Source: Deltaproteobacteria bacterium (GTDB lineage Bacteria > Desulfobacterota > Dissulfuribacteria > Dissulfuribacterales > UBA3076). Taken from it: DNA of 38,292 nt. The position numbers and the translations under genes are program-made. The DNA is taken from the NCBI GenBank assembly GCA_011042225.1, contig DQXT01000051.1, forward strand, positions 1-38,292, read 5' to 3'. Under the pieces are notes generated by a model. The model was given only the letters and a program-made list of their open reading frames with translations. It did no database searches and was not told the origin of the DNA. Every line of letters begins with the position of its first letter. Position 1 is the stretch's first letter. Shown piece by piece: positions 2,501 through 30,950 of this stretch.

Positions 2501-5500
2501 CTAATTTCGAATTTCGAGTTTCGAATTATTATTCTCTGGTTCGTATTCTACCTTTAATCCGGCGTAACCCAATAAATCATTCATTCTTTCAGTAAGCTCA
2601 GGACTTATAGTCACATTATATTCTTCAGGCAGACTCAGAACTACCCTGCCCCTGTCTTTAATAGTAACCGCCAGTTTCACAGGATGTGATCCACGATGTT
2701 GGTTGAATAGATCCCGCAAGGGCCTGAGTACCTGGGGGCCTAACGAATCTCCCCGGAGTTCGACTAGAAGTCCTCTCACTCTTTGTTTACAGGCCTCACC
2801 CAGCGACTCCATTGAATTCGCAAGTATCTTATTGATTTTCTTATCATCTTCCTTTTTGAGTGTCCCTACTACCCACACAGGCGAATCGGCGTCAATCAAT
2901 TCCCTTGCCTTTGCGTATATCTCAGGGAAACAGACAATTTCAATAGAGCCGTGTAAGTCCTCAAGGGTCAGGAATGCCATCCTGTCTCCCTTTCTGGTAA
3001 TGATTTCCTTATTGATTCGAATCGTCCCGGCGAGACCGATCTGGCTTCCATCCACCATCCCGGAAATATTGCCTGTATGTACACTCGCCATCTTCAAAAG
3101 TTCATCTCTGTATGGATCCAGTGGGTGTCCGCTGATATAGAACCCCAGATAAGTCTTTTCATTGGCAAGATATTCAAGTTCGGACCATTCGGGTATATCA
3201 GGCATGATCAGCGCGGACTCCCGTGGCCTCTCAGGAACTGCCCGGGCCATAGAGTCAAATAGAGACATCTGGCCTGAAAGCCTTTCCTGTCTTTTGGCCT
3301 GGCCGACATCAAGGGCTATGTCCAATACGGCAATCATTTGTGAACGCCTGGGGCCGAGAGAATCAAGGGCCCCGCACTTTATCAAACTTTCAAGCATCCG
3401 CTTGTTGACTTTTTTGAGATCAACCCTGGAGCAAAAGTCCTCAAAACTGGAATACCGGCCATTTTTTTCTCTTTCCTGAACAATAGCGTTTATTGCACCT
3501 AAACCGACATTTTTTACCGCTGCAAGCCCAAACCGTATACTCTCTGCCTCTATGGTAAAATCCACCTTGCTGTAGTTGACATCCGGGGGGAGTATTTGGA
3601 TGTCTCTTGCCCTGCACTCACCTATGAATTTGACCACCCCGTCTGTATTTCCCAGTTCATTGGACAGCAATGAAGCCATAAAGGGCACAAGATAATGCGC
3701 TTTTAACCAGGCGGTATGATAGGCTATCAGGGCATAAGCCGCCGAGTGACTCTTGTTAAAGCCGTATCCTGCAAATTTCTCCATCAGATCAAAGATAATC
3801 TTGGCCTTAAAATCAGGAATGCCATGCTTTACCGCACCTGATTGAAAACGGTCCCGCTGTGCGGCCATTTCCTTATGATCCTTTTTGCCCATGGCCCTTC
3901 TCAGGATATCCCCTTCACCAAGGCTGTATCCAGCCAGTACCTGGGCTATTTTCATTACCTGTTCCTGGTAAACTATGACCCCGTATGTCTCCCTGAGAAT
4001 GGACTCAAGCTCCGGCAAGATATAGGTTACTTCGATCTCTCCGTTTTTAGCCTTTACGGCCTGGTCCACCATGCCGCTTTCCATGGGCCCAGGGCGATGA
4101 AGGGCTACCAGTGCTATTATGTCAGTGAAGCCTGAAGGCCTCATGCGCTGCAACAGGTCCTTCATTCCAGGGCTTTCGAGCTGAAATACCCCTGTAGTAT
4201 TACCGCTTGACAAAAGTTCATAGGTCTCAGGATCATCCAGGGGAATCTTGGCCAGACTAATATTCGTCCCAAGGTGCTCTCTGATGAGCTTGAGGGCCGT
4301 ATCTATTACCGTAAGGGTCCTCAGTCCCAGAAAGTCAAACTTGATAAGCCCTGTCTTTTCCACATACTTCATGGCAAACTGAGTGACAGTCTCACCATGT
4401 TGTCCTTTGGTAAGGGGTAGATATTCCACCATGGGCCTGTCTGAAATAACAACTCCTGCCGCATGAGTTGAGGCATGACGCGGTAGACCTTCAAGTGCCT
4501 GCGCTATGTTAAGGAGTTCTCCTATTTTCGGATCTTTTTTTTCAAGTTGCTCGAGTTCGGGCTCTATCTTGAGGGCCTTTTCAAGGGTAATATTGAGCTG
4601 ATCAGGCACCAGTTTGGCTATGTGGTCTACTTCCTGATAAGGTATTCCAAGGGCCCTGCCAACGTCTCTGATTACCGCCTTAGCCTTCATCTGGCCGAAC
4701 GTGATTATCTGGGCTACAAAATCCTCACCCCCATACTTTTCCGTAACATAGTGAATGACCTCATCCCTGCGATTCATACAGAAATCTATGTCTATATCAG
4801 GCAGAGATTCTCGCTCAACATTCAAAAACCTCTCAAAAAAGAGGCCATACTTTACCGGATCGATTTCTGTAATCCTCATGGCATAGGCCACCAGAGAGCC
4901 TGCTGCAGACCCTCTGCCGGGTCCAACTGGTATGGACTGAGATTTTGCCCAATTAATAAAATCGGCAACTATGAGAAAATAAGAAGCAAACCCCCTTTCC
5001 TTGATGACCGATATCTCGGTCTCCAATCTTTCCTTGTATTGGGCATATTCTTCTTTATGGATTTCATCTTCCTGAAAACGCTCCTCAAGCCCTTTTCTGG
5101 CAGAGGCCTCAAAAAGTCCGCTATAGGTCTCGCCTTTCTTGATCGGATAAAGCGGAAAGTGCCGCCTTCCAAGTTCCATCTCCACATTGCACTTGTCGGC
5201 TATCTCACATGTCATGGACAAGGCATCAGGATAATCTCTAAACCTCTCGACCATCTCCTCTGGGGACGTAAAATAAAGTTTATCGGTGGAAAATCGCATC
5301 CTGTTGGTGTCATTAACCGTTTTGTTAGTCTGTATACACAGCAGAACATCATGGGCCCTGGCATCTTCAGGATCCAGATAGTGACAATCATTAGTGGCGA
5401 CCACAGGAAGCCCCAGTTCTTTACCAAGTGTCACCAGCCCCTGGTTTACGACTGTCTGCTCGGCTATATCATTTTCCTGTATCTCGAGGTAGAAACGGTT

Positions 5501-12632: not shown

Positions 12633-13080
12633 AACCGTTTCACTTTCCGGGCATTTATTATTGCTGATATACGCAAACTGACTGAAACAAAACGCCGTTT
12701 CATTATAGCTAATTAGCGATTTTTAAAGTTTTTTTCAAGAACGGACCGCTCTCATATATATCCAACTTATTGATATTATTGATGATTATAAAATCATTAA
12801 AAATCCGGGATCAGGTTCTTGCCCCCGGATTAACCTAAACAGACTGATTATACAGTAAGCGGTATTATATGCGTAATTATTTCTGTCTTTAGCTGAGCAT
12901 TTCTTATAAGCCCGTCTCGGTTTTGAAATAAATCACATGAGGTTCTATTGAACGTTCAGCAGATATCTAAAACTGCTGGAATTTTCATATGGCTCTTTAC
13001 CTATTATGATAGGGTGTTAAATTATGCCGCTCGGGCTTAATAAAAAATTAGGAATTTTAGATCCCAATTGGAAGGAATCC
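12633..13080. other. divergent spacer before the sigma-54 regulator
   Basis: This AT-rich spacer separates divergent genes. It holds two dyads: CAGCAG/CTGCTG (12957-12962 with 12973-12978, extendable outward with one bulge) and CCTAT-TATG-ATAGG just before 13024. Either could be an autoregulatory site. TTGAAA, 17 bases, then TATTGA (about 12924-12952) is a possible sigma-70 promoter. In-frame codons from 13024 to 13080 are open but probably untranslated. No RNA gene or other ORF is evident. Confidence 0.4.
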
Positions 13081-14445
13081 ATGGAGGCTAATTATAACAT
13101 CCTGGTGATTGACAATGACTCCTTCATTCAGGATGCCTGTCGGCAAACCCTTACTAAACATGGTCATAACGTTGTCCAGGCAAAAAGTGGTCATGAAGGC
13201 CTCGCCCTGCTCAACAACTGGTCATTTGATCTTATTCTCCTCGAGATGAATATGCCCGGTGAAGACGGACTGCTTGTCCTGGCCAAAATCAAGGATTTGG
13301 AGCCTGAGACCATTGTTGTTATGATCTCGGAGAACGGCTCTATTGAAACCGCTGTTCAGGCCGTCAAGCTTGGGGCTTTTGACTTTATGGCCAAGCCCTT
13401 TACTCGAGATGAATTACTTAAACGAATCGGCCAGGTACAGAGAAACCGTCGATTAAACATTGAAAAACTCTATCTGAAGCAAAGTCGCAACCAAAAGATA
13501 GAAAGCGCCCAAATCATCAGTAACAGCCCTGCCATTGAAAAAATCAAAGAGATGATAGCTATGGTAGCCCCCACGGAGACCACCGTGTTGCTTCAGGGTG
13601 AAAGTGGCACAGGCAAGGGACTTGCAGCCCGCAGAATCCACGAAATGAGTCAGCGAAAGGCAGGTCCTTTTGTATCAGTCGATTGCGGCTCCCTGGTGAG
13701 CTCCATATTTGAAAGTGAACTTTTCGGCCATATAAAGGGGTCTTTTACAGGTGCAGACAAAACCCAGTATGGAAAATTTGAGATGGCACAGAAAGGGACC
13801 TTATTCTTTGATGAGATATCCAATATAAGCCTGGAAATCCAAGCAAAACTTTTGAAGGCGGTAGAGGAAAAAACCATATCCAAGGTAGGAGACCATAAGG
13901 TCGTCAATGCCGATGTTCGCCTTATATCAGCCACAAATCAGGATCTTCAAAAGGCCGTCGCCCGTGGACTCTTTCGTAAAGACCTGTTCTTCAGACTAAA
14001 TGTAGTATCTATACATATACCCCCTTTACGGGAGCGTAAAGAGGATATCCCGCTACTGCTGCAACACTTCCTGAACAGATTTGGCAGTAGAGAAGGGAAA
14101 GTGATTGAGGGCCTGTCTCCAAATGCCATGAAGGCACTCACGGAATATCATTGGCCGGGCAACGTCCGAGAATTGGAAAATACGGTAGAGCGGCTTGTGG
14201 TCTTTGCAAGAGATAAGATTATTACCACGCAGGATCTTGCATACTCAAATACCGTATTATCGAGTTTGCCCGTGAAAGACCCGCTTTGTCTTGAGGAAAT
14301 GGAACGTCTACACATTATGAAAGTAGTCGAACTAACAGAGGGAAATAAAACCCGTGCTGCCCGATTGCTTGGTATTGACCGCAAAACACTCAGAATGAAA
14401 ATAAAAAAACATCAGATTCCGGAGAATTCAAATCAGAATTGCTAA
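13081..14445 (+). CDS. NtrC-family sigma-54 activator with an altered receiver
   Basis: This is a three-domain enhancer-binding protein. An N-terminal receiver spans about residues 5-120. The AAA+ domain (about 150-380) has Walker A GESGTGKG, the sigma-54 contact loop in its GSFTGA form, and Walker B LFFDEIS. A Fis-type helix-turn-helix ends the protein (NKTRAARLLGIDRKTLRMKI). The receiver keeps the acidic pocket (IDND), a Ser at the switch Thr/Ser position and the Lys of AKPF. The phosphoacceptor Asp, however, is Glu: LLEMNMPG, codon GAG at 13243-13245, residue 55. The start at 13081 has GGAAGGA before it and places this residue where NtrC has Asp54; an in-frame ATG at 13024 is an alternative. 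No histidine kinase lies nearby. It precedes a sigma-54 promoter for acs, its probable target. Confidence 0.93.
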   Translation: MEANYNILVIDNDSFIQDACRQTLTKHGHNVVQAKSGHEGLALLNNWSFDLILLEMNMPGEDGLLVLAKIKDLEPETIVVMISENGSIETAVQAVKLGAFDFMAKPFTRDELLKRIGQVQRNRRLNIEKLYLKQSRNQKIESAQIISNSPAIEKIKEMIAMVAPTETTVLLQGESGTGKGLAARRIHEMSQRKAGPFVSVDCGSLVSSIFESELFGHIKGSFTGADKTQYGKFEMAQKGTLFFDEISNISLEIQAKLLKAVEEKTISKVGDHKVVNADVRLISATNQDLQKAVARGLFRKDLFFRLNVVSIHIPPLRERKEDIPLLLQHFLNRFGSREGKVIEGLSPNAMKALTEYHWPGNVRELENTVERLVVFARDKIITTQDLAYSNTVLSSLPVKDPLCLEEMERLHIMKVVELTEGNKTRAARLLGIDRKTLRMKIKKHQIPENSNQNC

Positions 14446-14520: not shown

Positions 14521-14537
14521 TGGAGCAAATCGCTCCA
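14521..14537. promoter_or_regulatory. dyad, candidate enhancer site for the sigma-54 activator
   Basis: TGGAGC and GCTCCA are separated by AAATC, a perfect 6-bp dyad. Its centre lies about 150 bases before the -24 element of the acs promoter, a normal distance for an enhancer-binding protein. Only one copy was found, so assignment to the neighbouring regulator is inference. Confidence 0.4.
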
Positions 14538-14539
14538 GT

Positions 14540-14577
14540 CCGGGTAAGATATCCCCGCTCTCTTACCGGTCTTTTTT
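14540..14577 (+). terminator. rho-independent terminator of the regulator gene
   Basis: CCGGGTAAGA (14540-14549) pairs with TCTTACCGG (14561-14569) with one bulged G, and TCTTTTTT follows. It lies about 95 bases after the regulator's stop and separates it from acs. Confidence 0.75.
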
Positions 14578-14675
14578 GATTATCCCGGCCCTTCTCATCC
14601 AAACTACCCAATTTTATATATAAAATTCAGTTAGATAATCGGTGATTGTTTCTCATGTGACAGGAACTGCCGTTA

Positions 14676-14691
14676 TGGTACAGAGATTGCT
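14676..14691 (+). promoter_or_regulatory. sigma-54 (-24/-12) promoter of the acs locus
   Basis: TGGTAC, five bases, then TTGCT match the consensus TGGCAC-N5-TTGCW with one difference. The invariant GG (14677-14678) and GC (14689-14690) are exactly ten bases apart, as sigma-54 requires. The start of transcription would be near 14702, leaving a leader of about 160 bases before acs. An enhancer-binding protein gene lies directly upstream, which supports the call. Confidence 0.78.
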
Positions 14692-14859: not shown

Positions 14860-16797
14860 ATGAAACCGACAAAGGTCAGTGGGCAATTAGAGAATGAGGC
14901 TATCGAAGCCATGTTGGTCGAAGGAAGGGTGTTTCGGCCCCGACCTCAGTTGGTTGCGGATGCTGTTCTGAGCCCCGATGAGTATGAGGAGGCGGTGAAA
15001 CAGGGCCGATCTGATCTTGAAGGATTCTGGGAAAAAGCCGCAGAAGAATTAGACTGGTTTAAAAAATGGGATACGGTACTTGACCGCTCCGATGCACCTT
15101 TTTTTAAATGGTATGCAGGGGGCAAGACCAATATCGCCTATAATGCGCTTGACCGTCATATAAAGACACATCGCAAGAACAAGGTGGCTATAATCTTTGA
15201 GTCCGAGAGCGGCGGACGTGAGCGTATGACTTATTATGATTTGTACCGAGCTGCCAACAAGTTTGCCAATGTCCTTAAATCTTTGGGAATAAGGAAGGGA
15301 GACCGTGTAATTATATATCTCCCCAATATCCCGGAAATAGCTATTGCCATGCTAGGATGCGCCAAGATTGGAGCAATACACAGTGTTGTCTATGCGGGTT
15401 TCAGTGCCCTCGCCCTTCGAGAACGGATCAACCACACAGAGGCAAGGCTTGTAATAACTGTTAACGGATTTCATAGAAACGGCGAAGTAATAAAACTTAA
15501 GGAGGCTGTAGACGAGGCCATGACGGCGTCGCCTACGGTAGAGACTGTAGTGGTGGTCCGGCGGGCGGGTATAGAGACCGACATGGGTGACGGCCGCTAT
15601 CTCTGGTTCCATGATTTGATGGATGGGGAATCTGCAGAATTTAAGACCGTGGAGATGGATGCCAATGATCCGCTTTATATACTTTATACCTCGGGCACAA
15701 CCGGCAAGCCGAAGGGAGTGGTACATTGCCACGGCGGCTATGGAGTGGGGATCAATCGTACATTGAAATGGGTGTTCGACATAAAGGAAACCGATATCTT
15801 CTGGTGTGCAGCCGATCTCGGATGGGTAACCGGACATAGCTACGTTGTCTACGGCCCACTTATCGTTGGTACCACTACCGTCATGTACGAGGGACATTTG
15901 CTGTTTCCAGGACCGGATCGCATGTGGAGGATCATCGAGAAGTACGGCGTCAATATCCTTTATACAACACCAACTACCATCAGGATTCTCATGAGATTCG
16001 GGGCTCAGTATCCAAAAAAGCATGATCTGTCAACCCTGCGGCTACTGGGTACGGTGGGTGAACCGATCAACCCTGAGGCCTGGGTGTGGTACTATGAAAA
16101 CATAGGACGACAGGAATGCCCCGTCATCGATACTTGGTGGCAAACAGAGACCGGCATGTTTATGGTAGCCCCGACACCATGTAACGAGTTAAAGCCCGGT
16201 TCGGCATTTAAGCCGCTCCCCGGTGTTCATGTAGATGTAGTAGATGCCAACGGCGATTACGTGGATCCCGGCAAGGGGGGTCATGTGGTGGTCAAGGAGC
16301 CGTGGCCTGCTATGCTCACAACACTCTATAAAGACCCTGAGAAATACAAAGAGATCTATTGGTCAAAATTCCCCGGGATGTATCTGGCCGGCGATATTGC
16401 CACTAAGGACACAGACGGCTTTATCTGGTTTCTGGGACGGTCTGATGACGTTCTCAAAATCGCAGGTCATCGAATCGGCACCATAGAGGTGGAAAAGGCT
16501 GTAACCGGTCACAAACATGTTGCTGAGGCAGCTTGCATAGGCGTACCTGATAAGGTACGTGGAGAGGTCGCCAAGATCTTTGTCATCTTAAAAAAAGGCG
16601 TCGAAAAGGACGAAGACAGCTTGGTAAATGAGTTGAAGGCCCACGTGCGAAAGGTCTTGGGACCCGTTGTGCTCATCCGCGAGATCGAATTTAAAGACAA
16701 ACTGCCGAAAACAAGGTGCGGCAAGATCATGCGCCGTGTACTGAAAGCGCGGGAGTTAGGATTAAAGGAGGGAGATCTGTCAACACTCGAGGATTAA
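14860..16797 (+). CDS. acs: acetyl-CoA synthetase (AMP-forming)
   Basis: The enzyme activates acetate to acetyl-CoA through acetyl-AMP. Its 645 residues have the family length. Landmarks in order are FKWYAGGKTNIAYNALDRH, the P-loop-like YTSGTTGKPKGVVH (about residue 275), the acetate-pocket segment DTWWQTETG with both Trp (about 425), GDIATKD, GRSDDVLKIAGHRIG and the C-terminal PKTRCGKIMRR. That last motif holds the catalytic lysine that is reversibly acetylated in Salmonella Acs; the usual Ser two residues before it is Cys here. The Trp pocket favours acetate, possibly propionate. The first strong ribosome site (GGGAGG, 14837-14842) is 17 bases before this ATG, and an in-frame ATC sits at ideal spacing. 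The porin gene follows after 35 bases. Confidence 0.95.
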   Translation: MKPTKVSGQLENEAIEAMLVEGRVFRPRPQLVADAVLSPDEYEEAVKQGRSDLEGFWEKAAEELDWFKKWDTVLDRSDAPFFKWYAGGKTNIAYNALDRHIKTHRKNKVAIIFESESGGRERMTYYDLYRAANKFANVLKSLGIRKGDRVIIYLPNIPEIAIAMLGCAKIGAIHSVVYAGFSALALRERINHTEARLVITVNGFHRNGEVIKLKEAVDEAMTASPTVETVVVVRRAGIETDMGDGRYLWFHDLMDGESAEFKTVEMDANDPLYILYTSGTTGKPKGVVHCHGGYGVGINRTLKWVFDIKETDIFWCAADLGWVTGHSYVVYGPLIVGTTTVMYEGHLLFPGPDRMWRIIEKYGVNILYTTPTTIRILMRFGAQYPKKHDLSTLRLLGTVGEPINPEAWVWYYENIGRQECPVIDTWWQTETGMFMVAPTPCNELKPGSAFKPLPGVHVDVVDANGDYVDPGKGGHVVVKEPWPAMLTTLYKDPEKYKEIYWSKFPGMYLAGDIATKDTDGFIWFLGRSDDVLKIAGHRIGTIEVEKAVTGHKHVAEAACIGVPDKVRGEVAKIFVILKKGVEKDEDSLVNELKAHVRKVLGPVVLIREIEFKDKLPKTRCGKIMRRVLKARELGLKEGDLSTLED

Positions 16798-16832: not shown

Positions 16833-18185
16833 ATGAAGTGGTTTTTTTCGCCTTGCCGGGCGACAATATTTGTGTCTAGCTTATTCTTCGTTTGTTTAAG
16901 CGGAGGAGTCGGTACATTGGCTTATGGAGAATCTGTTGAAGACCTGAAGACGCAGATGAAGACAATGCAGGACCAGATGATACAGATGCAAAAAAATATG
17001 CAGGCCCTTCAGAATCGTATCAATCAGCTTGAAACAGCTCCACCGGCACCACAGGTTGTGGCCGCTCCTGAAATTCCAGCCCTGACGGCCGATGAGGTAA
17101 CCGCCCTTAAAAACCTTACGACATTTGGCAATGTATGGTCAAAGTACAACATGAAGCTCTATGGAAAAGTCAAGGTCGACTTTAATTACGATACGGCCGA
17201 ATTTAAAAATTACAATGACTTTATAGGTTGTGTGGCCAAGGAGAGTGATTATGAAAACGACTCTACCGACTTTAATCCCCGTGATACCCGGTTGGGATTC
17301 AAAGCAAGTCACAAGTGGGACGAATGGTCGGCCATGGCCCACATAGAGACTGATTTCTACGGCGACAACTCAGGCAACAACCTTATTCCACGTATGCGTC
17401 TAGGCTATATTAATGTCGGCTATGAAAAGACTCATACAAGCATGCTGGTCGGCCAGGACTGGATACCGGTCTCACAGCTCAATCCATCGACCGTTGACTT
17501 CGGTATTCTGACCGCTGCGGGGAACCTGTGGTGGCGTGTCCCGCAGATTACAGTGAGGCAAGAACTGGGAGATTTCCAGGTATTGGCATCGGTAATGAAA
17601 CACCGACGTACGGATACTGAAAACGAGGACCGTATGCCGTGGCTTCTCACCCGGATACAGTACTCTGATGAAATTCTCGGCAAAGGCGGACTTGTAGCCC
17701 TTGGCGGAGGTTACCGAAATGCAGACTATGGGCAGGATAGTTCTGATAACGCCGACCGCTGGCTGATTTGCGGGGAATTAAAGTACGTCACAGGCCCCTT
17801 TACCTTAAAGGGTGAGATCTGGACCGGTGAGGGCATCGGGCGCAACTTCCTTCGCTATGATCTGGATATGGCGTACGATAATGATAAGGCTGAGTATGGT
17901 GAACCTGCATCAGCCTATGGCGGATGGGCAGATCTTACTTATGCATTCAATGACAAGACCACTATGGCAGTAGGTTATGGCTTTGACAATCCTAATAACG
18001 GCGACATAGGAGACTACACTAATGACCGTCGGTTTACGCGTAACGAACAGTATTTCATCAATACCTGGTATTCACTCTCTGAACCACTTAAGGTAGGTGC
18101 TGAATATATTTTCATCGAGACCGAGCGGCATAGGCAAATACATTCAGGAAACCGCTTTACGGTCTCCATGCAGTATGTCTTCTAA
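16833..18185 (+). CDS. outer-membrane porin with N-terminal coiled coil
   Basis: A Sec signal peptide (basic start, hydrophobic core, cleavage probably near AYG-E at about residue 32) precedes a Gln/Met-rich coiled coil (about residues 34-68: DLKTQMKTMQDQM and following). A long region of alternating polar and aromatic residues ends in SMQYVF, the terminal aromatic expected of an outer-membrane beta-barrel. Motifs such as DTRLGFKASHKWDEWSAMAHIE and LRMGYENVG-like strands resemble porins encoded beside acs genes in other Desulfobacterota. A role in diffusion of acetate or related anions is inferred from location. AGAGGAGG precedes the start, and the 35-base gap suggests co-transcription with acs. 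Confidence 0.87.
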   Translation: MKWFFSPCRATIFVSSLFFVCLSGGVGTLAYGESVEDLKTQMKTMQDQMIQMQKNMQALQNRINQLETAPPAPQVVAAPEIPALTADEVTALKNLTTFGNVWSKYNMKLYGKVKVDFNYDTAEFKNYNDFIGCVAKESDYENDSTDFNPRDTRLGFKASHKWDEWSAMAHIETDFYGDNSGNNLIPRMRLGYINVGYEKTHTSMLVGQDWIPVSQLNPSTVDFGILTAAGNLWWRVPQITVRQELGDFQVLASVMKHRRTDTENEDRMPWLLTRIQYSDEILGKGGLVALGGGYRNADYGQDSSDNADRWLICGELKYVTGPFTLKGEIWTGEGIGRNFLRYDLDMAYDNDKAEYGEPASAYGGWADLTYAFNDKTTMAVGYGFDNPNNGDIGDYTNDRRFTRNEQYFINTWYSLSEPLKVGAEYIFIETERHRQIHSGNRFTVSMQYVF

Positions 18186-18585
18186 GAGGTATAAAAGTGG
18201 TACTGGATATTTCATATAGGCCATCATGTGCTATCATTCGCGCTATATGTCGCCATATATGAAATATCCACAGGTAATAGAAACTTCTTGAAGGAGGTTT
18301 AATAGTATTACAGAAATTACCTATTTGAAAAATCGATGGCGAAAAATAATTACTTATTAATATTCTGGCATCATTCATTTTAAGGTTAATACTTTTTAGT
18401 CGTTTTGATCAAAGCGAAAATTCTTTAAGTATTGGTTTATAACATCTGTGTTGGTTTCACTATTTGCAATGACGACGAAAGATGTCAGCTACCTACATGA
18501 AGAAATGCCAATGTTTTATTAAAATATTTTGCATGCGAAAAACGTTTAGTCGTAAAATTATAAAAGCATTTAAGGAGTTTGATCT
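18186..18585. other. spacer between the porin and the second acs-like gene
   Basis: These 400 bases hold the long hairpin at 18204-18270 and, just after it, a near-perfect ribosome-binding sequence AAGGAGG (18291-18297) with no start codon or useful ORF behind it. The remainder is AT-rich. A GG/GC pair resembling a sigma-54 promoter occurs near 18452 but its spacing is eleven, not ten. No gene is visible, although the orphan ribosome site may mark a lost one. Confidence 0.5.
18204..18270. repeat. long inverted repeat with a 15-bp perfect stem
   Basis: TGGATATTTCATATA (18204-18218) and TATATGAAATATCCA (18256-18270) are exact complements, and the stem continues with GGC/GCC after one unpaired T. 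The loop is about 30 bases. There is no T-run on either side, so it is not a standard terminator. It may protect the upstream acs-porin mRNA or form an RNA regulatory element. Confidence 0.75.
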
Positions 18586-20661
18586 ATGGCAAAAAAAGCA
18601 TCTGTAAAGACATCAGCATCAGAAATCGCTGTCCACTGGAAAGAGGAAGATTATTATAATCCTCCCATAAAATTTATTGCTCAGGCAAACCTGACCGACG
18701 AAGGTGTATATGACCGGTTCAGCCTTGACAACTTCCCTGAATGTTTCAAGGAATATGCTGATTTACTGGACTGGTACAAGTACTGGCATACAACACTTGA
18801 TACAAGTGACGCGCCCTGCTGGAAGTGGTTCGTGGGCGGGAAGATAAACGCTTGTTATAACTGTGTAGACAGGCATCTTGAAAAGAACAAGAATAAGACT
18901 GCAATCCACTGGGTACCTGAACCTGAAAACGAACGAATTGAGCACCTTACGTATCAGGACCTATATGGAAGGATCAACGAGTTTGCCTCTCTGCTTCGTG
19001 ACTTTGCGGGTCTAAAGGCAGGCGACAGGGTGACGCTTCACCTGCCCATGGTGGCGGAACTCCCCATAACCATGCTTGCGTGCGCCAGACTCGGCGTTAT
19101 TCACTCTGAGGTCTTTGGAGGTTTCAGCGGCCACGCATGCGCAGACAGAATCGTTGACTCCGGAAGTAATGTGCTCATAACCATTGACGGTTATTACCGG
19201 GGAGGCAAGCTCCTTGACCATAAAGCAAACGCAGACATAGCTGTAGCCAAGGCGGAAAAGGAAGGCCAGACCGTTGATAAGGTCTTAATATGGCAGCGCT
19301 ATCCCGGGAAAAACTCGAGTCCTACGCCTATGGTAGAAGGTCGTGATTTCATTGTAAATGATCTAATCAAGGAGTATCGAGGCAAAAGGGTGGATCCGGT
19401 ACCCATGCCTGCTGAAGCCCCCCTGTTCCTGATGTATACGAGTGGAACCACTGGAAAACCCAAGGGATGCCAGCACAGCACAGGAGGATACCTTGCTTAT
19501 GTGACTGGGACCTCAAAATATATCCAGGATATCCATCCGGAGGATGTTTACTGGTGTATGGCCGATATCGGCTGGATCACAGGACATTCATATATTGTTT
19601 ACGGCCCATTGGCCCTTTGCGCATCTTCTGTAATTTTTGAAGGTGTGCCCACTTATCCTGACGCGGGACGGGCGTGGAGGATAGCGGAAGAATTGGATGT
19701 AAATATCTTCCATACTGCACCAACCGCAATACGGGCACTCAGAAAAATCGGTCCTGATGAACCTGCTAAGTACAATTATCACTTTAAACACATGACCACT
19801 GTCGGAGAACCTATCGAGCCGGAGGTATGGAAATGGTACTATAATGTAGTCGGGAAGGGTGAGGCAGTAATAGTTGATACTTGGTGGCAGACGGAGAACG
19901 GCGGTTTTCTCTGCAGTACCGTGCCTGCGATTAGGCCCATGAAGCCCGGCAGTGCAGGTCCTGGTGTACCTGGTATTCATCCGATAATCTACGATGATGA
20001 TGGAAACGTAGTACGTGCAGGAGCTGGAAAGGCAGGTAATATCTGTATACAGAATCCCTGGCCGGGCCAGTTCCAGACTATATGGGGAGATCGTGATAGA
20101 TTTGTATCCACGTATTTTGCAAGATACTGCAAAAACAAAAATAGTAAGGACTGGCGTGATTGGCCTTACCTTGCCGGTGATGCGGCGGTGTTGTCCGAAG
20201 ACGGATACTATCGCATCCTCGGAAGAATTGATGACGTAATCAATGTATCCGGACACCGGCTTGGGACCAAGGAACTTGAGTCCGCTTCTCTTGATGTCCC
20301 TGAAGTGGCGGAAGCGGCGGTTGTTCCTGTAGTTGACGAAATAAAGGGAATGGTCCCTGATCTCTATGTATCTCTGAAACCGGGATACGATCCCAGCCCT
20401 GAGTTGGTTGCCAAGATCTCACAGAGTATCTGTGATTCCATCGGCAAAATCGCAAGGCCGAGAAAGGTCTGGATTGTACCGGATATGCCGAAAACACGTT
20501 CCGGTAAAATAATGCGCAGGATACTGTCAGCCATATCCAACGATAGGGATGTAGGTGATACCACTACGTTGGCGAATCCTGATATCGTCACTGAAATCCA
20601 AAAGATGTCGCAGGAGATGATAGATGACCTTAAAAAGAGCAAAAAAGAACTGATGAAGTAA
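18586..20661 (+). CDS. second acetyl-CoA synthetase-like acyl-CoA synthetase
   Basis: A 691-residue AMP-forming acyl-CoA synthetase clearly different from the first. It has WKWFVGGKINACYNCVDRH, the YTSGTTGKPKGCQH adenylate motif (about residue 284), DTWWQTENGG in the acid pocket (about 433), GDAAVLSEDGYY, GRIDDVINVSGHRLG and the C-terminal PKTRSGKIMRRIL with the catalytic lysine and normal Ser. The Trp pocket points to acetate or propionate, but kinetic preference cannot be told. The N-terminus is extended by Lys/Ser/Ala-rich residues, and the C-terminus ends in a Lys-rich helix. AAGGAG precedes the ATG. The OFA carrier follows after 42 bases, so acid import and activation are probably co-expressed. 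Confidence 0.93.
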   Translation: MAKKASVKTSASEIAVHWKEEDYYNPPIKFIAQANLTDEGVYDRFSLDNFPECFKEYADLLDWYKYWHTTLDTSDAPCWKWFVGGKINACYNCVDRHLEKNKNKTAIHWVPEPENERIEHLTYQDLYGRINEFASLLRDFAGLKAGDRVTLHLPMVAELPITMLACARLGVIHSEVFGGFSGHACADRIVDSGSNVLITIDGYYRGGKLLDHKANADIAVAKAEKEGQTVDKVLIWQRYPGKNSSPTPMVEGRDFIVNDLIKEYRGKRVDPVPMPAEAPLFLMYTSGTTGKPKGCQHSTGGYLAYVTGTSKYIQDIHPEDVYWCMADIGWITGHSYIVYGPLALCASSVIFEGVPTYPDAGRAWRIAEELDVNIFHTAPTAIRALRKIGPDEPAKYNYHFKHMTTVGEPIEPEVWKWYYNVVGKGEAVIVDTWWQTENGGFLCSTVPAIRPMKPGSAGPGVPGIHPIIYDDDGNVVRAGAGKAGNICIQNPWPGQFQTIWGDRDRFVSTYFARYCKNKNSKDWRDWPYLAGDAAVLSEDGYYRILGRIDDVINVSGHRLGTKELESASLDVPEVAEAAVVPVVDEIKGMVPDLYVSLKPGYDPSPELVAKISQSICDSIGKIARPRKVWIVPDMPKTRSGKIMRRILSAISNDRDVGDTTTLANPDIVTEIQKMSQEMIDDLKKSKKELMK

Positions 20662-22787: not shown

Positions 22788-23072
22788 ATGGAATTCAGGA
22801 GCACCCTTTGTGCCTCGTTGCCTGGAATTATGAATCATATTTTCCCATGGACACTGACCGCTCTTAGTATAATAGGGGCAATACTGAACATAAGAAAAAA
22901 ACGTTCTGGTTTTGCTGTCTATACAATGGCGAACATAGGGTGGATAATCGTGAATATCTATCACGGTATTTATGCCCAGGCCGCCCTTTTTATAGTCTTC
23001 ACCGGGCTTTCTATCTGGGGATGGATAGAGTGGAGTCGCAAAAAGTGGAGCAGACATGGCGGCATCCTTTGA
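22788..23072 (+). CDS. small three-helix membrane protein, PnuC-like
   Basis: A 94-residue protein (80 if it starts at the ATG at 22830, giving MNHIFPW) with about three hydrophobic segments. The order LTALSIIGAILNIRKKRSGFAVYTMANIGWIIVN... WGWIEWSRKK resembles half of a PnuC-type nicotinamide riboside or mononucleotide transporter, including the W-x-W-W-like end. Full PnuC has seven helices, so this would act as an oligomer, like a SemiSWEET-type half transporter, or have another role. The ribosome-binding site is weak for both starts. It overlaps the archease start by 17 bases. Function is inferred from resemblance only. Confidence 0.65.
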   Translation: MEFRSTLCASLPGIMNHIFPWTLTALSIIGAILNIRKKRSGFAVYTMANIGWIIVNIYHGIYAQAALFIVFTGLSIWGWIEWSRKKWSRHGGIL

Positions 23073-23475
23073 AACTTTTGAACACGGCGCTGATATAGGC
23101 ATTAGGGGTAGAGGCAAGACCTTGTCAGAGGCCTTTGAAAATGGTGCCAAGACAATGTTTTCTCTTTTTGTGGAAGACCTTGACACCATCATACCTCGGA
23201 AATCAGTTACAATTTCGTGTGAGTCCTTTGATATCGAGGGTCTATTTGTTGCATGGCTCAATTCCCTTTTGGCTGAATCCGATATACAAAGGCTGATATT
23301 CAGCGACTTCAAAGTCAGAATACAGGACCTTAGTCTTATGGGAACGGCAATGGGAGAACCGTTTGATTTATCAAGGCATCAACGAGGAGTAGAAGTTAAA
23401 GGAGCAACCTTTACAGAACTCGTAGTCAGGCAAGATGATGAAGGCTGGATTGCCCAGTGTGTTGTAGATGTATAG
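23056..23475 (+). CDS. archease (RtcB activator)
   Basis: Archease speeds up guanylylation and turnover of the RNA ligase RtcB. This 139-residue protein has the family start FETFEHGADIGIRGRG with the metal-binding His/Asp region, FENGAKTMFSLFVED, VAWLNSLLAESD and the C-terminal WIAQCVVDV, whose Asp is the second metal ligand in the family. RtcB is encoded 28 bases downstream, which makes the functional call firm. The start overlaps the end of the small membrane gene, so translation may be coupled. Confidence 0.92.
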   Translation: MAASFETFEHGADIGIRGRGKTLSEAFENGAKTMFSLFVEDLDTIIPRKSVTISCESFDIEGLFVAWLNSLLAESDIQRLIFSDFKVRIQDLSLMGTAMGEPFDLSRHQRGVEVKGATFTELVVRQDDEGWIAQCVVDV

Positions 23476-23503
23476 ATTAACATTATTATTATTTAAATAG
23501 ACC

Positions 23504-24934
23504 ATGGAGATTAAACAGCTAAAACGCCTGGAAGAATATCAGTGGGAAATTCCCATGGATAAGGATATGAGAGTCCCCGGCCTTATCTTTGCCAGTGAAG
23601 ATCTGATTTCCGAAATGGATGAAAAGGTGCGCCAACAGCTCAGCAATGTTGCCTCGCTGCCCGGGATTGTCAAGGCTGCCATTGCCATGCCCGATGCCCA
23701 CTGGGGCTATGGTTTTCCCATAGGAGGAGTAGCGGCATTTGATCCGGACGACGGCGGTATTATATCGGTAGGCGGAGTCGGCTATGATATTTCCTGCGGG
23801 GTCAGGAACCTGCAGACCGGTCTCATGCGAGACGAGATCCTGCCCGTCCTTGAGCCGCTGATAGATCGACTCTTCAAGGTTGTCCCATCTGGTATGGGTT
23901 CTGAAGGTAAGATCAGGCTGTCACCTGACGAACTGGATGAGGTTCTCACAGGAGGTGCGCAGTGGGCCGTAGGACGGGGTTATGGACTACCAGAAGATCT
24001 TGCCCACACGGAAGAACAGGGAAGACTGGAAGGGGCTGATCCGTCTTGTGTCTCGGATGTCGCTAAACTCCGACAGTATCGACAGGTGGGGACCCTTGGT
24101 TCAGGAAACCATTATCTGGAGATACAGTGCGTAGAAAGGATCTTTCATCAGCCCTCCGCCAAGGCCCTGGGTTTAAAACAGGGAGACATAATAGTGGCAA
24201 TCCACTGCGGCTCCAGGGCACTGGGCCATCAGATCGGAACCGATTATCTTCAGGTACTTGGTCAGGCCGGCAAGAAGTATCATATTCCAATCAGAGAACG
24301 GGAGCTTGTGTGCGCTCCAATAAAATCTCCTGAAGGACAAAGATATTATAAGGCCATGGCCTGTGGAGTGAACTGTGCACTGGCGAACCGGCAGGTAATT
24401 ACTCATCTGATCCGTCAGGTCTTTCAAGGAATATGTCCAAGAGCGAATTTGAAAAACCTTTATGATGTCAGCCATAATACATGCAAAATAGAAAATCACA
24501 AAATAAACAGCAGGGTGAAACGCCTTTTTGTCCACCGAAAGGGCGCTACCAGGGCTTTTGGTCCCGGCAGACCTGAATTGCCTGAGGCATTCAAAGATAT
24601 CGGTCAACCCGTTCTGGTAGGTGGAACTATGGGGACCTGTTCCTATATTCTGGTAGGCCGGGAAACAGGAGAAGCCATGGCCTGGGGTTCCGCCTGCCAC
24701 GGCGCAGGCCGTTCAATGAGTCGAAGAGCCGCGCTGAAGCGCTGGAAAGGCCGGAAGATAATCGCCGAACTGGCCCAAAAAGGTATACTCATAAGGGCAG
24801 CGAGCTACAGGGGTGCGGCTGAAGAGGCGCCCGAAGCATATAAGGACGTCACCGGGGTAGTGGATTCCACGCACATGGCAGGACTTGCAAGAAAGGTAGC
24901 GATGTTGAGACCTCTGGCCTGCATCAAGGGTTGA
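23504..24934 (+). CDS. rtcB: RNA-splicing ligase RtcB
   Basis: RtcB joins RNA 3'-phosphate or 2',3'-cyclic phosphate ends to 5'-OH ends, using GTP and Mn2+. The 476-residue protein is full length and shows the metal and guanylate residues: PDAHWGYGFPIGG (about residues 65-77), GVGYDISCGV with the Asp and Cys ligands (about 91-100), GSGNHYLE, AIHCGSRALGHQ, DVSHNT and ACHGAGR, whose His (about 399) receives GMP. Unlike many RtcB genes it carries no intein. It follows archease in one unit. Without a visible tRNA intron, an RNA-repair role after ribonuclease damage is the likely use, as proposed for bacterial RtcB. Confidence 0.96.
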   Translation: MEIKQLKRLEEYQWEIPMDKDMRVPGLIFASEDLISEMDEKVRQQLSNVASLPGIVKAAIAMPDAHWGYGFPIGGVAAFDPDDGGIISVGGVGYDISCGVRNLQTGLMRDEILPVLEPLIDRLFKVVPSGMGSEGKIRLSPDELDEVLTGGAQWAVGRGYGLPEDLAHTEEQGRLEGADPSCVSDVAKLRQYRQVGTLGSGNHYLEIQCVERIFHQPSAKALGLKQGDIIVAIHCGSRALGHQIGTDYLQVLGQAGKKYHIPIRERELVCAPIKSPEGQRYYKAMACGVNCALANRQVITHLIRQVFQGICPRANLKNLYDVSHNTCKIENHKINSRVKRLFVHRKGATRAFGPGRPELPEAFKDIGQPVLVGGTMGTCSYILVGRETGEAMAWGSACHGAGRSMSRRAALKRWKGRKIIAELAQKGILIRAASYRGAAEEAPEAYKDVTGVVDSTHMAGLARKVAMLRPLACIKG

Positions 24935-26396: not shown

Positions 26397-27581
26397 TCAA
26401 AGCAAGGCATCTGCCCCTTCAGGACACGGATACCTCACTATATTTCCTTCAAAGGTGCGGAATATTGCCCTTTCTTGGCTGAATTCAAGCAAATATGAAG
26501 GTACCATCATGGCCTTGCCTCCACCGTCAGGAAGGTCCACAACATAGTTCGGTATACACAGACCACCTATTTTGCCCCACAGCTCCTGAATAATTTCAAC
26601 ACCCTTTCTGATATCTGTCCGAAAGTGATCTGCCCCCCGCACTGCATCACAGTGGAATAGGTAGTAGGGTCTTACCATGATCCTCTGAAGTCCAAGACAC
26701 AATTCTTTTATAACTTTAAGGGAATCATTGACCCCTTTTAATAACACAGCCTGATTCGACACCGGTATCCCTGCCTTGAGGAGCCTTTCGCACGCTTTTG
26801 TTGACTCAGGTGTGATCTCTCTTGGGTGATTGAAGTGAGTATTTATCCAGAGGGGACGATGTCTGGCCAGTATTTGACACAGGTCCTCGGTTATGCGCAT
26901 GGGCATAACTACAGGAATTCTGGTGCCAATACGTAACACCTCCACATGAGGAATTTTTCTAAATTCCTTTAAAAACTCATCCAGCAGGCTCAGGGGTGAT
27001 ATAAGGGGATCTCCCCCGGAGACTATGACTTCACGAACACCGGGGCTGGCAGCGACATACTCCACCATACGGCAAAAGGCCTCTCTTGTACTGCCGGCCT
27101 CTGCACTTATCCATGTGCGTTTCCTGTTACAATGACGGCAGTAAACAGCACATCTACCTGTCACCATTGCCAGTACACGATCAGGATACCTGTGAATCAG
27201 ACCGGGAACCGGCATATGTGAACGTTCGGCCAGGGGGTCTTCTTCTGAACCTGGAAGGGAAAATTCAATCTCCCTTGGATCAGGTATACATTGTTTCCTG
27301 ATAGGATCATCGGTATCCGACCAATCGATCAGGGAAAAATAATAAGGCGTAACCGCATATTTGTATCGTCCTATGACGTCTCTGTAAACCTCTTTCTCAG
27401 AACATGTAAGTTGCAACAATCCTGACAGTGCATCAAGGCCCTTAATCCGATTTGAAAACTGCCAGCGCCAATCAGACCAATGCCTCGTTTCACCCCTATT
27501 CATTTGTTTCAAGGCCTTTGACCGGCCGTATGCACGAAAATCAGTCAAAGTATCTTCAGAATTAAATGCGGTATTTTCCAT
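26397..27581 (-). CDS. KamA-family radical SAM lysine 2,3-aminomutase
   Basis: A 394-residue PLP-dependent radical SAM enzyme. The [4Fe-4S]/SAM motif CAVYCRHC is at about residues 143-150. SGGDPL, the KamA signature HFNHPREIT, LLKGVNDS, CDAVRGADHFRT and VDLPDGGGKAMM follow. The Lys of GGGK (about 355) matches the PLP lysine of clostridial KamA, and the two Asp residues in CDAVRG and VVDLP match those that hold the lysine side chain. Length and motifs are closer to KamA than to the shorter EpmB, so free lysine is a likely substrate and beta-lysine the product. The N-terminus (about 30 polar residues) is unlike either. It lies 44 bases after the YcaO gene on the same strand, with efp-epmA 2.7 kb away. 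Confidence 0.88.
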   Translation of the reverse strand: MENTAFNSEDTLTDFRAYGRSKALKQMNRGETRHWSDWRWQFSNRIKGLDALSGLLQLTCSEKEVYRDVIGRYKYAVTPYYFSLIDWSDTDDPIRKQCIPDPREIEFSLPGSEEDPLAERSHMPVPGLIHRYPDRVLAMVTGRCAVYCRHCNRKRTWISAEAGSTREAFCRMVEYVAASPGVREVIVSGGDPLISPLSLLDEFLKEFRKIPHVEVLRIGTRIPVVMPMRITEDLCQILARHRPLWINTHFNHPREITPESTKACERLLKAGIPVSNQAVLLKGVNDSLKVIKELCLGLQRIMVRPYYLFHCDAVRGADHFRTDIRKGVEIIQELWGKIGGLCIPNYVVDLPDGGGKAMMVPSYLLEFSQERAIFRTFEGNIVRYPCPEGADALL

Positions 27582-27625
27582 CTACATTCTGCGTTTTTTA
27601 GATATTGCATATTCCGTTTTTTTTA

Positions 27626-29056
27626 TCATAAGGACTGGATTACTTCCGTAAAATCACCTATGAATTTCTTGGAAAAAACCAATTGGGGTGACAGGTTTAG
27701 AGTCCTCTCAAAATATTCTTTTGATTGCTCGTACATCCTGAGCTTCTTATAACAAATGGCTATGTCACATGAAATATGGGGAGTAGCTTTATACCGGGGA
27801 TCAATTTCTATGGATTTTTTAAAATACCCAATGGCATCCTCATAATTTTGTAAATACATGCAAATCTTTGCCATATAAAAATAGGGATTTAGGCTAGTAC
27901 TGGGACGATTAAGCCTTGTTCCAGGTATTGTTACCGCTACTGCTGGTATTTGAAATTCAGAACAAGTAGTATCAGTTACAATTACCTCTAGATTATTATC
28001 CTGCTTAATAAGATTTACCGCCTTCTCTATTTCTATCTTAAAATCTGAATGCCTGTAAGTAGATATTTTATTTAAAGGAATTATCTCCGTGTTTTCTGTT
28101 AAATATTTAGCATCCTCTAAGGTCTTGAAATATGGGAAACAGTAAGTGGGTCCGCCTGCCCTTTTATCTCTGTTTTCTTTATAAATAATCTCTGCTCTAT
28201 GTTGAGCAAGCTCGATCAGGGCACGAATTAAGGCAAAATCACGATTCAGATGTGCACCTGCCGCATTATATATCCTGAGCGTATCTGTTGGTGGACTTGA
28301 ATCATAAGCAAGAACACTTATGGTTGGAATGTTTAATCCCAAAGAAAAATCCTTAATATAAAGCTCAATACCCGCATCAAAGAACTTTTTTATCAATGAC
28401 TTTGCAATGTGGCAATCAACAGAAGAAATATCAAGAGATGGAGTAGATAACTTTCCTTGTATGACTCTTGAGATATTATGCCTTTCTATTACCTCTCCTA
28501 TTGCCTGAAGTGTTGCCTCTTGTATTGTATTTCCGCTAGCAAATCCTGTGGTGCCATAGATAAGATAAAACCAGTGTAAAGGGAAAATAACAGGCTTATT
28601 ATATGTTAAAGAAAAGGCTTCTATCCAGGGAAGGGATAATTTTCTCAAATCCCTCAATATCTCATCTGTTTGATAAACAGATGGTAAAGGTAAAAGTAAA
28701 CTTAATGGATCTAATGCATTTTCTTTTAATTTGTCGTAGCTGGAAATAATAAAAGGCCTTTTCTTTTTTATAAACCATTCACAACTATAACGTTCGACCG
28801 CCTCCATTAATGCGCTGGCCTTTGCCTGCTCTATAGTTGTACCCTTCCCGCAGCTATCAGCTATCCCCAAATTTGACTCAATCTCACAGATGAAGGCCGG
28901 TATACCTATTTTATCAAATTTATCGATGCGCAAAATGCTACTTAAATTAATCGACTCATTTTGTCTAAGCCTGTTTAATGCATTTTTCACAGTCTCTTTT
29001 GGAATGACGACCTTATCTTGTCCAAATGTGTAATTTTTAAGGCATGAATGCATCAT
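27626..29056 (-). CDS. YcaO-domain protein with C-terminal TPR repeats
   Basis: YcaO enzymes use ATP to phosphorylate backbone amides and make azolines, thioamides or amidines. This 476-residue protein keeps the three ATP-binding blocks: GKGTTIEQAKASALMEAVER (about residues 70-89), ATLQAIGEVIERHN (about 179-192) and RALIELAQHR (about 273-282). The proline-rich tail of RiPP azoline cyclodehydratases is absent. Instead the last 90 residues form about two TPR-like repeats (YFYMAKICMYLQNYEDAIGYF, then CDIAICYKKLRMYEQSKEYF), an arrangement that recalls E. coli YcaO, which is linked to RimO modification of ribosomal protein S12. No precursor peptide, TfuA or E1-like gene is nearby. The gene is visibly more AT-rich than its neighbours, suggesting later acquisition. 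It is followed by the kamA-family gene after 44 bases. Confidence 0.88.
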   Translation of the reverse strand: MMHSCLKNYTFGQDKVVIPKETVKNALNRLRQNESINLSSILRIDKFDKIGIPAFICEIESNLGIADSCGKGTTIEQAKASALMEAVERYSCEWFIKKKRPFIISSYDKLKENALDPLSLLLPLPSVYQTDEILRDLRKLSLPWIEAFSLTYNKPVIFPLHWFYLIYGTTGFASGNTIQEATLQAIGEVIERHNISRVIQGKLSTPSLDISSVDCHIAKSLIKKFFDAGIELYIKDFSLGLNIPTISVLAYDSSPPTDTLRIYNAAGAHLNRDFALIRALIELAQHRAEIIYKENRDKRAGGPTYCFPYFKTLEDAKYLTENTEIIPLNKISTYRHSDFKIEIEKAVNLIKQDNNLEVIVTDTTCSEFQIPAVAVTIPGTRLNRPSTSLNPYFYMAKICMYLQNYEDAIGYFKKSIEIDPRYKATPHISCDIAICYKKLRMYEQSKEYFERTLNLSPQLVFSKKFIGDFTEVIQSL

Positions 29057-29303
29057 ATCGCCCTTTTTTTGAAATTTTTAGAAATTAATTTTATTTCGGC
29101 AGGCAGTTCTAATGATATCATAATCATATAATAATATATAAACAGTAATTCAAGCCGGATTGACGTTTTCCCGTAGCTTGCTTAGAATATCCGCCGATCT
29201 AAAATAGGACAATCTTGGATGAGGTGTAAAATTTTTAAAACGTCAGATTGGAATATGGAGAACAAAACAACAGAGACTTTACATCAGTTTTAGGGTGCCT
29301 ACT

Positions 29304-29591
29304 ATGATGGAAAACCGTCAAAAACGTGTAAACATATTAGTGCAAGGAAGGGTTCAAGGTGTATTTTTTAGAGCGAATACAAAGGCTGAAGCTAAACGCC
29401 TAGGGCTTAAAGGGTGGGTAAAGAATCTTCCAGATGGCAGGGTGGAACTCGTTGCGGAAGGACCTGTTTGGGCGGTGAACGAGTTGATAAACTGGTGCCG
29501 TAAAGGTCCTGCGTATTCAAGGGTAGACAAAGTAGAATTTCATGAAGAGACACCAAGAGGAAGGTATAATGAATTTTCAGTTCGTTATTGA
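29304..29591 (+). CDS. acyP: acylphosphatase
   Basis: Acylphosphatase hydrolyses acyl phosphates. The 95-residue protein has the phosphate loop GRVQGVFFRANT with the catalytic Arg and GWVKNLPDGRVELVAEG with the catalytic Asn, both as in the family. The ATG at 29304 is chosen because AGGG stands eight bases before it; an upstream in-frame GTG at 29295 would overlap that ribosome site. The next gene starts 23 bases inside its 3' end. The cellular role of acylphosphatases in bacteria is poorly defined. Confidence 0.92.
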   Translation: MMENRQKRVNILVQGRVQGVFFRANTKAEAKRLGLKGWVKNLPDGRVELVAEGPVWAVNELINWCRKGPAYSRVDKVEFHEETPRGRYNEFSVRY

Positions 29592-29967
29592 CAAAACCAT
29601 TATAAGCATCTTCTTCATCTTTCTCTTATGTGGATGCAGCACAGTCCATTTGGACCTTTTGGAAGCAGATCCTCCTCTATGTCTCAATGACCCTGCTCCG
29701 GTAAGACTGCTGGTAGTAAAGCACTTCAAGGATAATATAAAGGCCCACTTCGGACTTTTCGGATTCGTAACCTGGAAACAGCCACCTCTGCAAAGGGTTT
29801 TTGAAGAAAAACTAGATGAATATGAGGGTAATGGTATAATAAATATAAATATAAAAAGTAAATTCGGCTTTCTGGATATGCTGCTGGGCCTTCCGCTCTC
29901 TCCTCTATGGTTCACTCGTACCTATATCATTGAAGGGGATGTGGTAATTATACAGTCATCCCGGTAA
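29569..29967 (+). CDS. small putative lipoprotein
   Basis: A 132-residue protein starts MNFQFVIDKTIISIFFIFLLCGCS, a signal sequence with a lipobox-like end whose Cys would be lipidated. AGGAAGG precedes the ATG at good spacing, favouring this start over one nine codons upstream. The mature part has no domain I recognise; it contains HFKDNIKAHFGLFGFVTWKQP and FEEKLDEYEG and ends in beta-rich sequence. It overlaps the acylphosphatase gene by 23 bases in another frame, so coupled translation is likely. No function is proposed. Confidence 0.7.
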   Translation: MNFQFVIDKTIISIFFIFLLCGCSTVHLDLLEADPPLCLNDPAPVRLLVVKHFKDNIKAHFGLFGFVTWKQPPLQRVFEEKLDEYEGNGIININIKSKFGFLDMLLGLPLSPLWFTRTYIIEGDVVIIQSSR

Positions 29968-30309
29968 TCTGATTCCAAACCCTTGTCCTTTGTCCCTATA
30001 GCCATTGGGCTGCGTTGCCCGTCGGCAAAATGCCCGTATCTAAATACGCCCTTGCATTTTTGCTTCTCGTGCCCTGCCCTTTAACAAAATCCATTAGTTT
30101 TACAAAATTCATATAAAAAGGACTATGCTTGAACTTAGAGAAATTATGGACTATTGATAGAAACCACATCATGGTGACGCATAACCGTCCTTGACAGGGA
30201 GCGAATAAATGCCTGCCGGTTCTATCTGCAAATAAAATACAGACAAAATTAATAAACCACAGCCATATGAATATTTTCAGTTAAATCATTTATCAAGGAG
30301 AAGATTGAA
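29968..30309. other. spacer before efp with a repeat-like segment
   Basis: No gene is seen in these 342 bases. The first part holds the inverted-repeat segment at 30010-30083. TTGACA near 30192 has no good -10 box at normal distance. The segment just before efp is AT-rich and includes its ribosome site AAGGAGAAG (about 30295-30303). Confidence 0.4.
30010..30083. repeat. intergenic dyad element, probably a dispersed repeat
   Basis: AAAATGC and CGTAT (30027-30039) are mirrored by ATACG and GCATTTT (30044-30060), forming a long imperfect hairpin with a CTAA loop, inside GC-rich sequence (GGGCTGCGTTGCCCGTCGG). Its style resembles dispersed intergenic repeats of Desulfobacterota. Only one copy lies in this window, so the repeat call is inference. 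Confidence 0.45.
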
Positions 30310-30873
30310 GTGTATGATTCTTCAGACCTCAGAAAAGGACTAAAAATAACTATCGACGGAGAACCATATGTCATTACTGATTTCCGGTTTTCCAAACCGG
30401 GAAAGGGGCAGGCCCTTTATAAATGCAAGCTCAAAAACATGGTAACCGGTTACACTGTGGATCGTACTTATCGATCGGGTGACAAGTTCGAACCAGCCAA
30501 CCTCGATGAAGTGCATATGCAATATCTCTACCGGGACAATCTGGGCTTTCACTTTATGAACACGGATACCTACGATCAAGTAACCTTAACAAATGACCAG
30601 GTAGTGGAGGCAAAAAGCTTCCTGTTGGAAAATATGGAGGTTGACATCCTGTTCTTTCAGGGATCTCCAATTGATATATCTCTGCCGACTTTTGTTGAAC
30701 TCGAGGTGACAGAATCCCCTCCCGGAATTCGAGGAGACACGGCCACCGGTGCCACAAAACCTGTAATCCTTGAAACAGGATACGAGATCCAGGTACCCCT
30801 CTTTATAAAGCAAGGCGAACTTCTGAAGATAGATACCCGCACAGGGGAATATGTGGAGCGAGCAAAAAGATAG
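30310..30873 (+). CDS. efp: elongation factor P
   Basis: EF-P rescues ribosomes stalled at polyproline stretches. The 187-residue protein has the three EF-P beta-barrel domains. The modification loop KPGKGQALYKCKL carries Lys32, equal to the Lys34 that EpmA lysylates in E. coli. The C-terminus VPLFIKQGELLKIDTRTGEYVERAKR is characteristic. The start is GTG, with AAGGAGAAG before it. epmA follows in the same orientation, which fits lysine-type rather than rhamnose-type modification even though dTDP-rhamnose genes exist elsewhere in the window; EarP-modified EF-P has Arg at this position. Confidence 0.97.
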   Translation: MYDSSDLRKGLKITIDGEPYVITDFRFSKPGKGQALYKCKLKNMVTGYTVDRTYRSGDKFEPANLDEVHMQYLYRDNLGFHFMNTDTYDQVTLTNDQVVEAKSFLLENMEVDILFFQGSPIDISLPTFVELEVTESPPGIRGDTATGATKPVILETGYEIQVPLFIKQGELLKIDTRTGEYVERAKR

Positions 30874-30950
30874 AACCTGACCTGAACAACTCCTATTACT
30901 ACAGCAACAATATCCATAAAGCCGGGGAAATCATTTCCAAACACAGGATA

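Follow-up and report, generated by a model that had tools for sequence, protein, structure and literature searches.

In Vibrio and Pseudomonas, acs and actP are controlled by the kinase-regulator pair CrbS/CrbR, where CrbR is a LuxR-type protein and not a sigma-54 activator. Sigma-54 promoters require an activator of the NtrC-type kind, and in NtrC1 from Aquifex and in DctD, both of which keep the phosphoacceptor Asp, the unphosphorylated receiver represses the ring and phosphorylation relieves this repression. In NtrC, Asn at this position is no phosphomimic. Up to 4% of receivers lack the Asp, with Glu as the commonest replacement (26%); the first acidic residue, the Lys and the fold are kept in such aspartate-less receivers, while the second acidic-pocket residue is often lost and is acidic in just 29% (PMC4395418). 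Engineered Glu at the phosphoacceptor position is active in NmpR, an NtrC-like protein of M. xanthus (D54E active, D54A inactive; PMC6211767), and activation by the same exchange is ascribed to NtrC where PMC4395418 refers to Klose et al. 1993; in other receivers, Asp-to-Glu by itself often fails to activate (PMC4395418).

The window studied here, i.e. the whole stretch of 38,292 nucleotides that was analysed, belongs as a contig to a MAG-like assembly of 2.05 Mb from a genus that includes a SeepSRB2 MAG. Its ORF at 13081-14445 (plus strand, like its domains and residues and like the stem-loop, sigma-54 site, acs1 and porin gene described below) encodes an NtrC-type sigma-54 activator of 454 aa that is kinase-orphaned and linked to acs. 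The protein consists of a receiver (residues 7-116, 13099-13428; PF00072, E 7.6e-28), an AAA+ domain with lid (13513-14241; PF00158, E 4.2e-64, and PF25601) with intact Walker motifs, and a Fis-type DNA-binding helix-turn-helix (14290-14412; PF02954), in which LGIDRKTLR is invariant across the family alignment. This combination of REC, Sigma54_activat AAA+ and Fis HTH is that of NtrC-subfamily sigma-54 enhancer-binding proteins, and the sigma-54-contact loop L1 (13738-13755) is present as GSFTGA, a variant of GAFTGA that several Asp-bearing relatives also carry. The expectation from the original prediction that the AAA+ and DNA-binding domains are functional is thus borne out as far as Pfam finds both intact. 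An additional in-frame ATG lies upstream at 13024; the conserved start is the M-E-A at 13081. None of the NCBIfam equivalogs for AtoC, ZraR and NtrC scored above its curated cut-off, and the best match, AtoC, was rejected as a label (411 bits against 714).

The best solved-structure matches, for the full-length protein as well as for the receiver, are the NtrC1 entries 4l4u and 1ny5; NtrC1/DctD-like proteins provide the closest solved structures. Our structure model is confident for the receiver, which is predicted to adopt an alternating beta/alpha fold (pLDDT about 68-93 by block). The AAA+ part is of low confidence because of a shallow alignment, and we therefore make no structural claim for it.

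The phosphoacceptor position is occupied by Glu55 (GAG, 13243-13245), as originally read and as confirmed by alignment with relatives. The original prediction had also described the acidic pocket, the switch Ser and the Lys as kept. This holds for Ser83 and for Lys105 (13393-13395), the conserved pocket Lys in an invariant alignment column, but not for the pocket, where the motif reads D11-N12-D13 (IDNDS). Asn12 (AAT, 13114-13116), found in the window genome only, aligns with the Mg2+ ligand (CheY Asp13, NtrC Asp11), and each of the 15 other sequences in alignment A2 has Asp in this column. The residue after the switch Ser also differs, being Glu84 (Ser83 and Glu84, 13327-13332; family alignment) instead of the Gly or Ala of kinase-linked relatives; both Glu55 and Glu84 are common to the window and locus L060. 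Hence, compared with a canonical response regulator, the phosphoacceptor Asp is Glu and the acidic Mg2+ pair is broken by Asn12, while a REC fold is present. By the definition of PMC4395418 the receiver is aspartate-less, and the protein is not a canonical response regulator; residue 55 cannot act as a normal phospho-Asp.

In their exchange of Asp for Glu or Asn, ChxR (Glu) and RitR (Asn) resemble the window receiver, which like other aspartate-less receivers keeps the first acidic residue, the Lys and the fold; they differ in output domain, that of the window being a sigma-54 AAA+ activator, and in that Asp, Asn and Glu versions as well as kinase-paired relatives occur here within one close family (PMC4395418 for ChxR and RitR). 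NtrC D54E, NmpR D54E and similar constitutive mutants share the NtrC-type architecture and the position of the Glu, yet they are engineered into kinase-controlled parents, whereas the Glu of the window is natural, fixed in its clade and accompanied by the change of the Mg2+ ligand. With CrbS/CrbR, finally, the locus has in common that acetate activation genes are tied to a two-component lineage, although here the kinase is lost.

Glu55 recurs in the two most similar homologues, at 91% and 86% identity, which come from separate MAGs and use the codon GAA; all close genomes are MAGs. In the congener G002 the site is Asn (AAT), and in all other sampled family members whose receiver could be read it is Asp; G007 and a contig of G062 were left out of this count, since their contig ends cut the gene before residue 55. 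The regulator genes of L034/L074 and L070, from two related genomes, run into contig ends before this residue. Among the retrieved loci, the receivers from the window's own genome that could be aligned at position 55 all carry Asp. In the tree, the three proteins with Glu group together with good support inside a set of Asp proteins. Asp is hence the ancestral state, from which Glu and Asn each arose once. The original prediction had held that Asp in most homologues, along with GAC or GAT on resequencing, would speak against it and had proposed an alignment of close homologues to see whether Glu is fixed: Asp indeed prevails family-wide, but all three members of the closest clade have Glu, which is thus fixed there. 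A sequencing or assembly artefact at codon 55 has a negligible chance and is refuted for Glu55, given three MAGs at 86-91% protein identity and two codons (GAG and GAA), even though the window is a single MAG and Asn12 occurs in its genome only.

All 42 distinct relatives with a histidine kinase gene directly upstream have Asp at the phosphoacceptor position. In the closest of these, the paired kinase is small (~245 aa) and soluble and shows no apparent sensor domain. Measured against the reference pair, kinase and regulator lose identity in step (76/73, 61/61 and 51/51%), which is what partners should do. In the acs-linked branch, where no kinase gene adjoins the regulator, the residue is Asp in L075, L062 and L076, Asn in L033 and Glu in the window, L060 and L061. 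A kinase-paired regulator copy also exists in the L075 genome and in the genome holding L062 and L076, and these Asp copies could therefore still be served. As noted in the original prediction, the window lacks a kinase gene: none was found by Pfam scans of 20 of its ORFs or by tblastn with the family kinase. Across eight genomes of the genus no kinase ortholog was detected (best matches of 39-42%, inside ~570-aa proteins, where at least 60% is expected), nor was a second copy of this regulator found in the genus; at the ortholog level, the cognate histidine kinase of a canonical response regulator is thus absent from window and genus. Because kinase-paired members are all Asp, the kinase-less branch is Asp, Asn or Glu and the genus has no kinase ortholog, the pattern in relatives matches an order in which the kinase was lost first and the phosphosite Asp later. 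The earlier linking of Glu to the missing kinase gains in this respect, as the family places the Glu form after kinase loss.

The predicted target is acs1 (acetyl-CoA synthetase, 14860-16797), which co-occurs with the regulator. It is preceded by the sigma-54 promoter TGGTACAGAGATTGCT (14676-14691), the top-scoring site of the window. Each of the nine regulator-linked loci that were scanned, and L247 as well, has a matching site ahead of acs, and the site of the window stands out as a conserved island within an otherwise diverged intergenic alignment. Since the scan weights are approximate, and since the hit count (24 against 18.7 expected) is not significant, the promoter claim rests on conservation and not on score. 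rpoN is present, so that both sigma-54 and a promoter at the candidate target exist, with binding to the target predicted. No strong sigma-54 site was found in ~500 bp upstream of the acs copy in L248, which has no linked regulator, and none was found for the regulator gene itself. The latter is probably terminated by a stem-loop followed by a T-run (14540-14579), whose 8-bp stem is preserved in L060, and a palindrome TGGAGCAAATCGCTCCA (14521-14537, without strand), weak and confined to the Glu clade, lies ~140 bp upstream of the sigma-54 site as a candidate activator site.

The full ancestral unit is that of L247 (G831), which reads sigma-54 site, acs, sodium/solute symporter, TPR-like, cNMP/CBS-type, kinase, regulator, where the names of the symporter, the small TPR-like and the cNMP/CBS-type genes were read from sequence and not from a family scan. 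From this order, the regulator family is plausibly an acetate-utilisation two-component system. Downstream of acs1, a porin gene (16833-18185; PF13609, weak and just below the curated cut-off) with synteny conserved in relatives is probably co-transcribed. The interval behind it contains a 24-nt inverted repeat with 83% complementarity (18204-18270), a possible terminator, followed by a second acs-like gene (18586-20661) ~40% identical to acs1; its synteny is conserved in three congeners, two of which have an MFS gene behind it. In L192 (G061:C74), the regulator-adjacent acs homologue (3985-4620) is truncated, with only residues 1-212 matched and a symporter gene directly after.

With C00003060-lineage genomes, the window shares 66-78% identity in the regulator and 74-86% in acs, compared with about 50% within its own order (48-52% for acs), and both genes are absent from congeners G001, G003 and G004. 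On these grounds, regulator and acs were probably acquired horizontally by the window's genus, in a direction that the nesting of the tree suggests. C00003060 is treated as an order separate from Desulfobacterales, and gene transfers into Seep-SRB2 have been described (PMC10553843). As a separate observation, L191 (G062:C32, 4.8 kb) is Seep-SRB2-like and has its closest regulator in G007, yet it is binned in a C00003060-lineage MAG, which points to either misbinning or recent transfer. Seep-SRB1g we presumptively place in the C00003060 order, following the text of PMC10553843.

Built on the residue changes, the absent kinase, the Asp/Asn/Glu series, the conserved promoter and purifying selection, we propose, with a probability of roughly 0.6, that an orphaned aspartate-less receiver protein of an acetate two-component system drives acs without phosphorylation, probably constitutively. 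The ancestor would have been a pair of small soluble kinase and regulator in the C00003060 lineage (Seep-SRB1g-type), located in one genome downstream of acs and symporter. A regulator copy without kinase would then have become linked to acs, and horizontal transfer probably brought this block into the Seep-SRB2-type genus of the window. In this kinase-free setting, one clade would have replaced the phosphoacceptor by Glu, and a further genome by Asn. Most likely, the regulator still binds upstream of acs, and its AAA+ ring opens the promoter at 14676-14691. That its receiver would no longer take phosphate is well supported; that it activates acs, and does so without phosphate, we infer. The least certain step is that Glu may hold the receiver in, or bias it to, the active state, so that acs would be constitutive or set by the level of the regulator. 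As in NtrC1/DctD-like proteins an unphosphorylated receiver represses the ring, the outcome of the Glu is not predictable. Phosphorylation mimicry by Glu, as originally suggested, would be an incomplete account, since congener G002 has Asn at the same site: an Asn protein cannot be a Glu mimic, hence mimicry is not general in the genus and Glu is not required by the lineage. The choice offered alongside it, constitutive activity or control by something other than phosphorylation, remains the right pair of options with no normal phospho-Asp and no partner kinase.

Within the Glu clade, the receiver has a dN/dS of 0.15-0.18 and AAA+ one of 0.06-0.08, and the protein is therefore maintained. Such purifying selection on the receiver, together with the new Glu55 and Glu84 shared with L060, would also suit a receiver that senses another input, a metabolite or partner protein, at its altered pocket or output face; an NtrC-type DctD can be activated by a protein partner without phosphate (PMC9040800). 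We found, however, no partner or ligand candidate, and no conserved new gene adjoins the regulator, which leaves this explanation unlikely if worth keeping in mind. Quite improbable is neutral decay, where the phosphosite drifts after kinase loss, the protein is inactive or weakly active and acs is driven otherwise. That the site is Glu in some members of the genus and Asn in a single congener would fit such drift, as would the faster receiver: its variable sites per site are 1.76-fold those of AAA+ in the Glu clade, while seven of the eight control triples from kinase-paired relatives give 0.75-1.04. Yet the eighth control gives 1.63 (p 1.0) and the excess is not clearly significant in the seven other comparisons (Fisher p 0.03 to 0.17), so that relaxed selection on the receiver is suggestive only. 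Strong conservation of AAA+ and HTH and the retained sigma-54 site also speak against decay. That a kinase encoded elsewhere phosphorylates the protein in the ordinary way, be it on Glu55 or on a different residue, is very improbable with both the phosphoacceptor and the Mg2+-ligand Asp gone and the cognate kinase absent, even if the genome has ~25 histidine-kinase matches elsewhere and phospho-Glu is chemically possible (PMC4395418).

Aspartate-less receivers as such are already known, and so are natural Glu receivers, though rarely alongside kinase-bearing relatives; what is unusual here is the visible series from kinase-paired Asp through orphan Asp to Asn or Glu, with a likely target, in one family. 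As this close family still has the kinase-regulator-acs unit in intact form, next to Asp copies that lack the kinase and to derivatives with Asn or Glu, the order of loss and the effect of Glu are testable on extant proteins. The phosphate-free activation of acs that we favour suggests that Seep-SRB2-type bacteria, described as syntrophic partners of methane-oxidising archaea, no longer couple acetate activation to the signal that controlled it ancestrally. Tentatively, and with the odds slightly against it, the scheme may extend further: among sulfate-reducing relatives of ANME partners, the loss of its kinase and a horizontal transfer would have turned an acetate two-component system into a one-component sigma-54 regulator that is either permanently active or senses a metabolite, the extant Asp, Asn and Glu stages forming a natural series of phospho-switch dismantling.

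Elsewhere in the window, genes for archease and RtcB adjoin (23056-24934), and EF-P, lysine-2,3-aminomutase-like and class II tRNA-synthetase-like genes (26397-31856) resemble an EF-P lysylation set.
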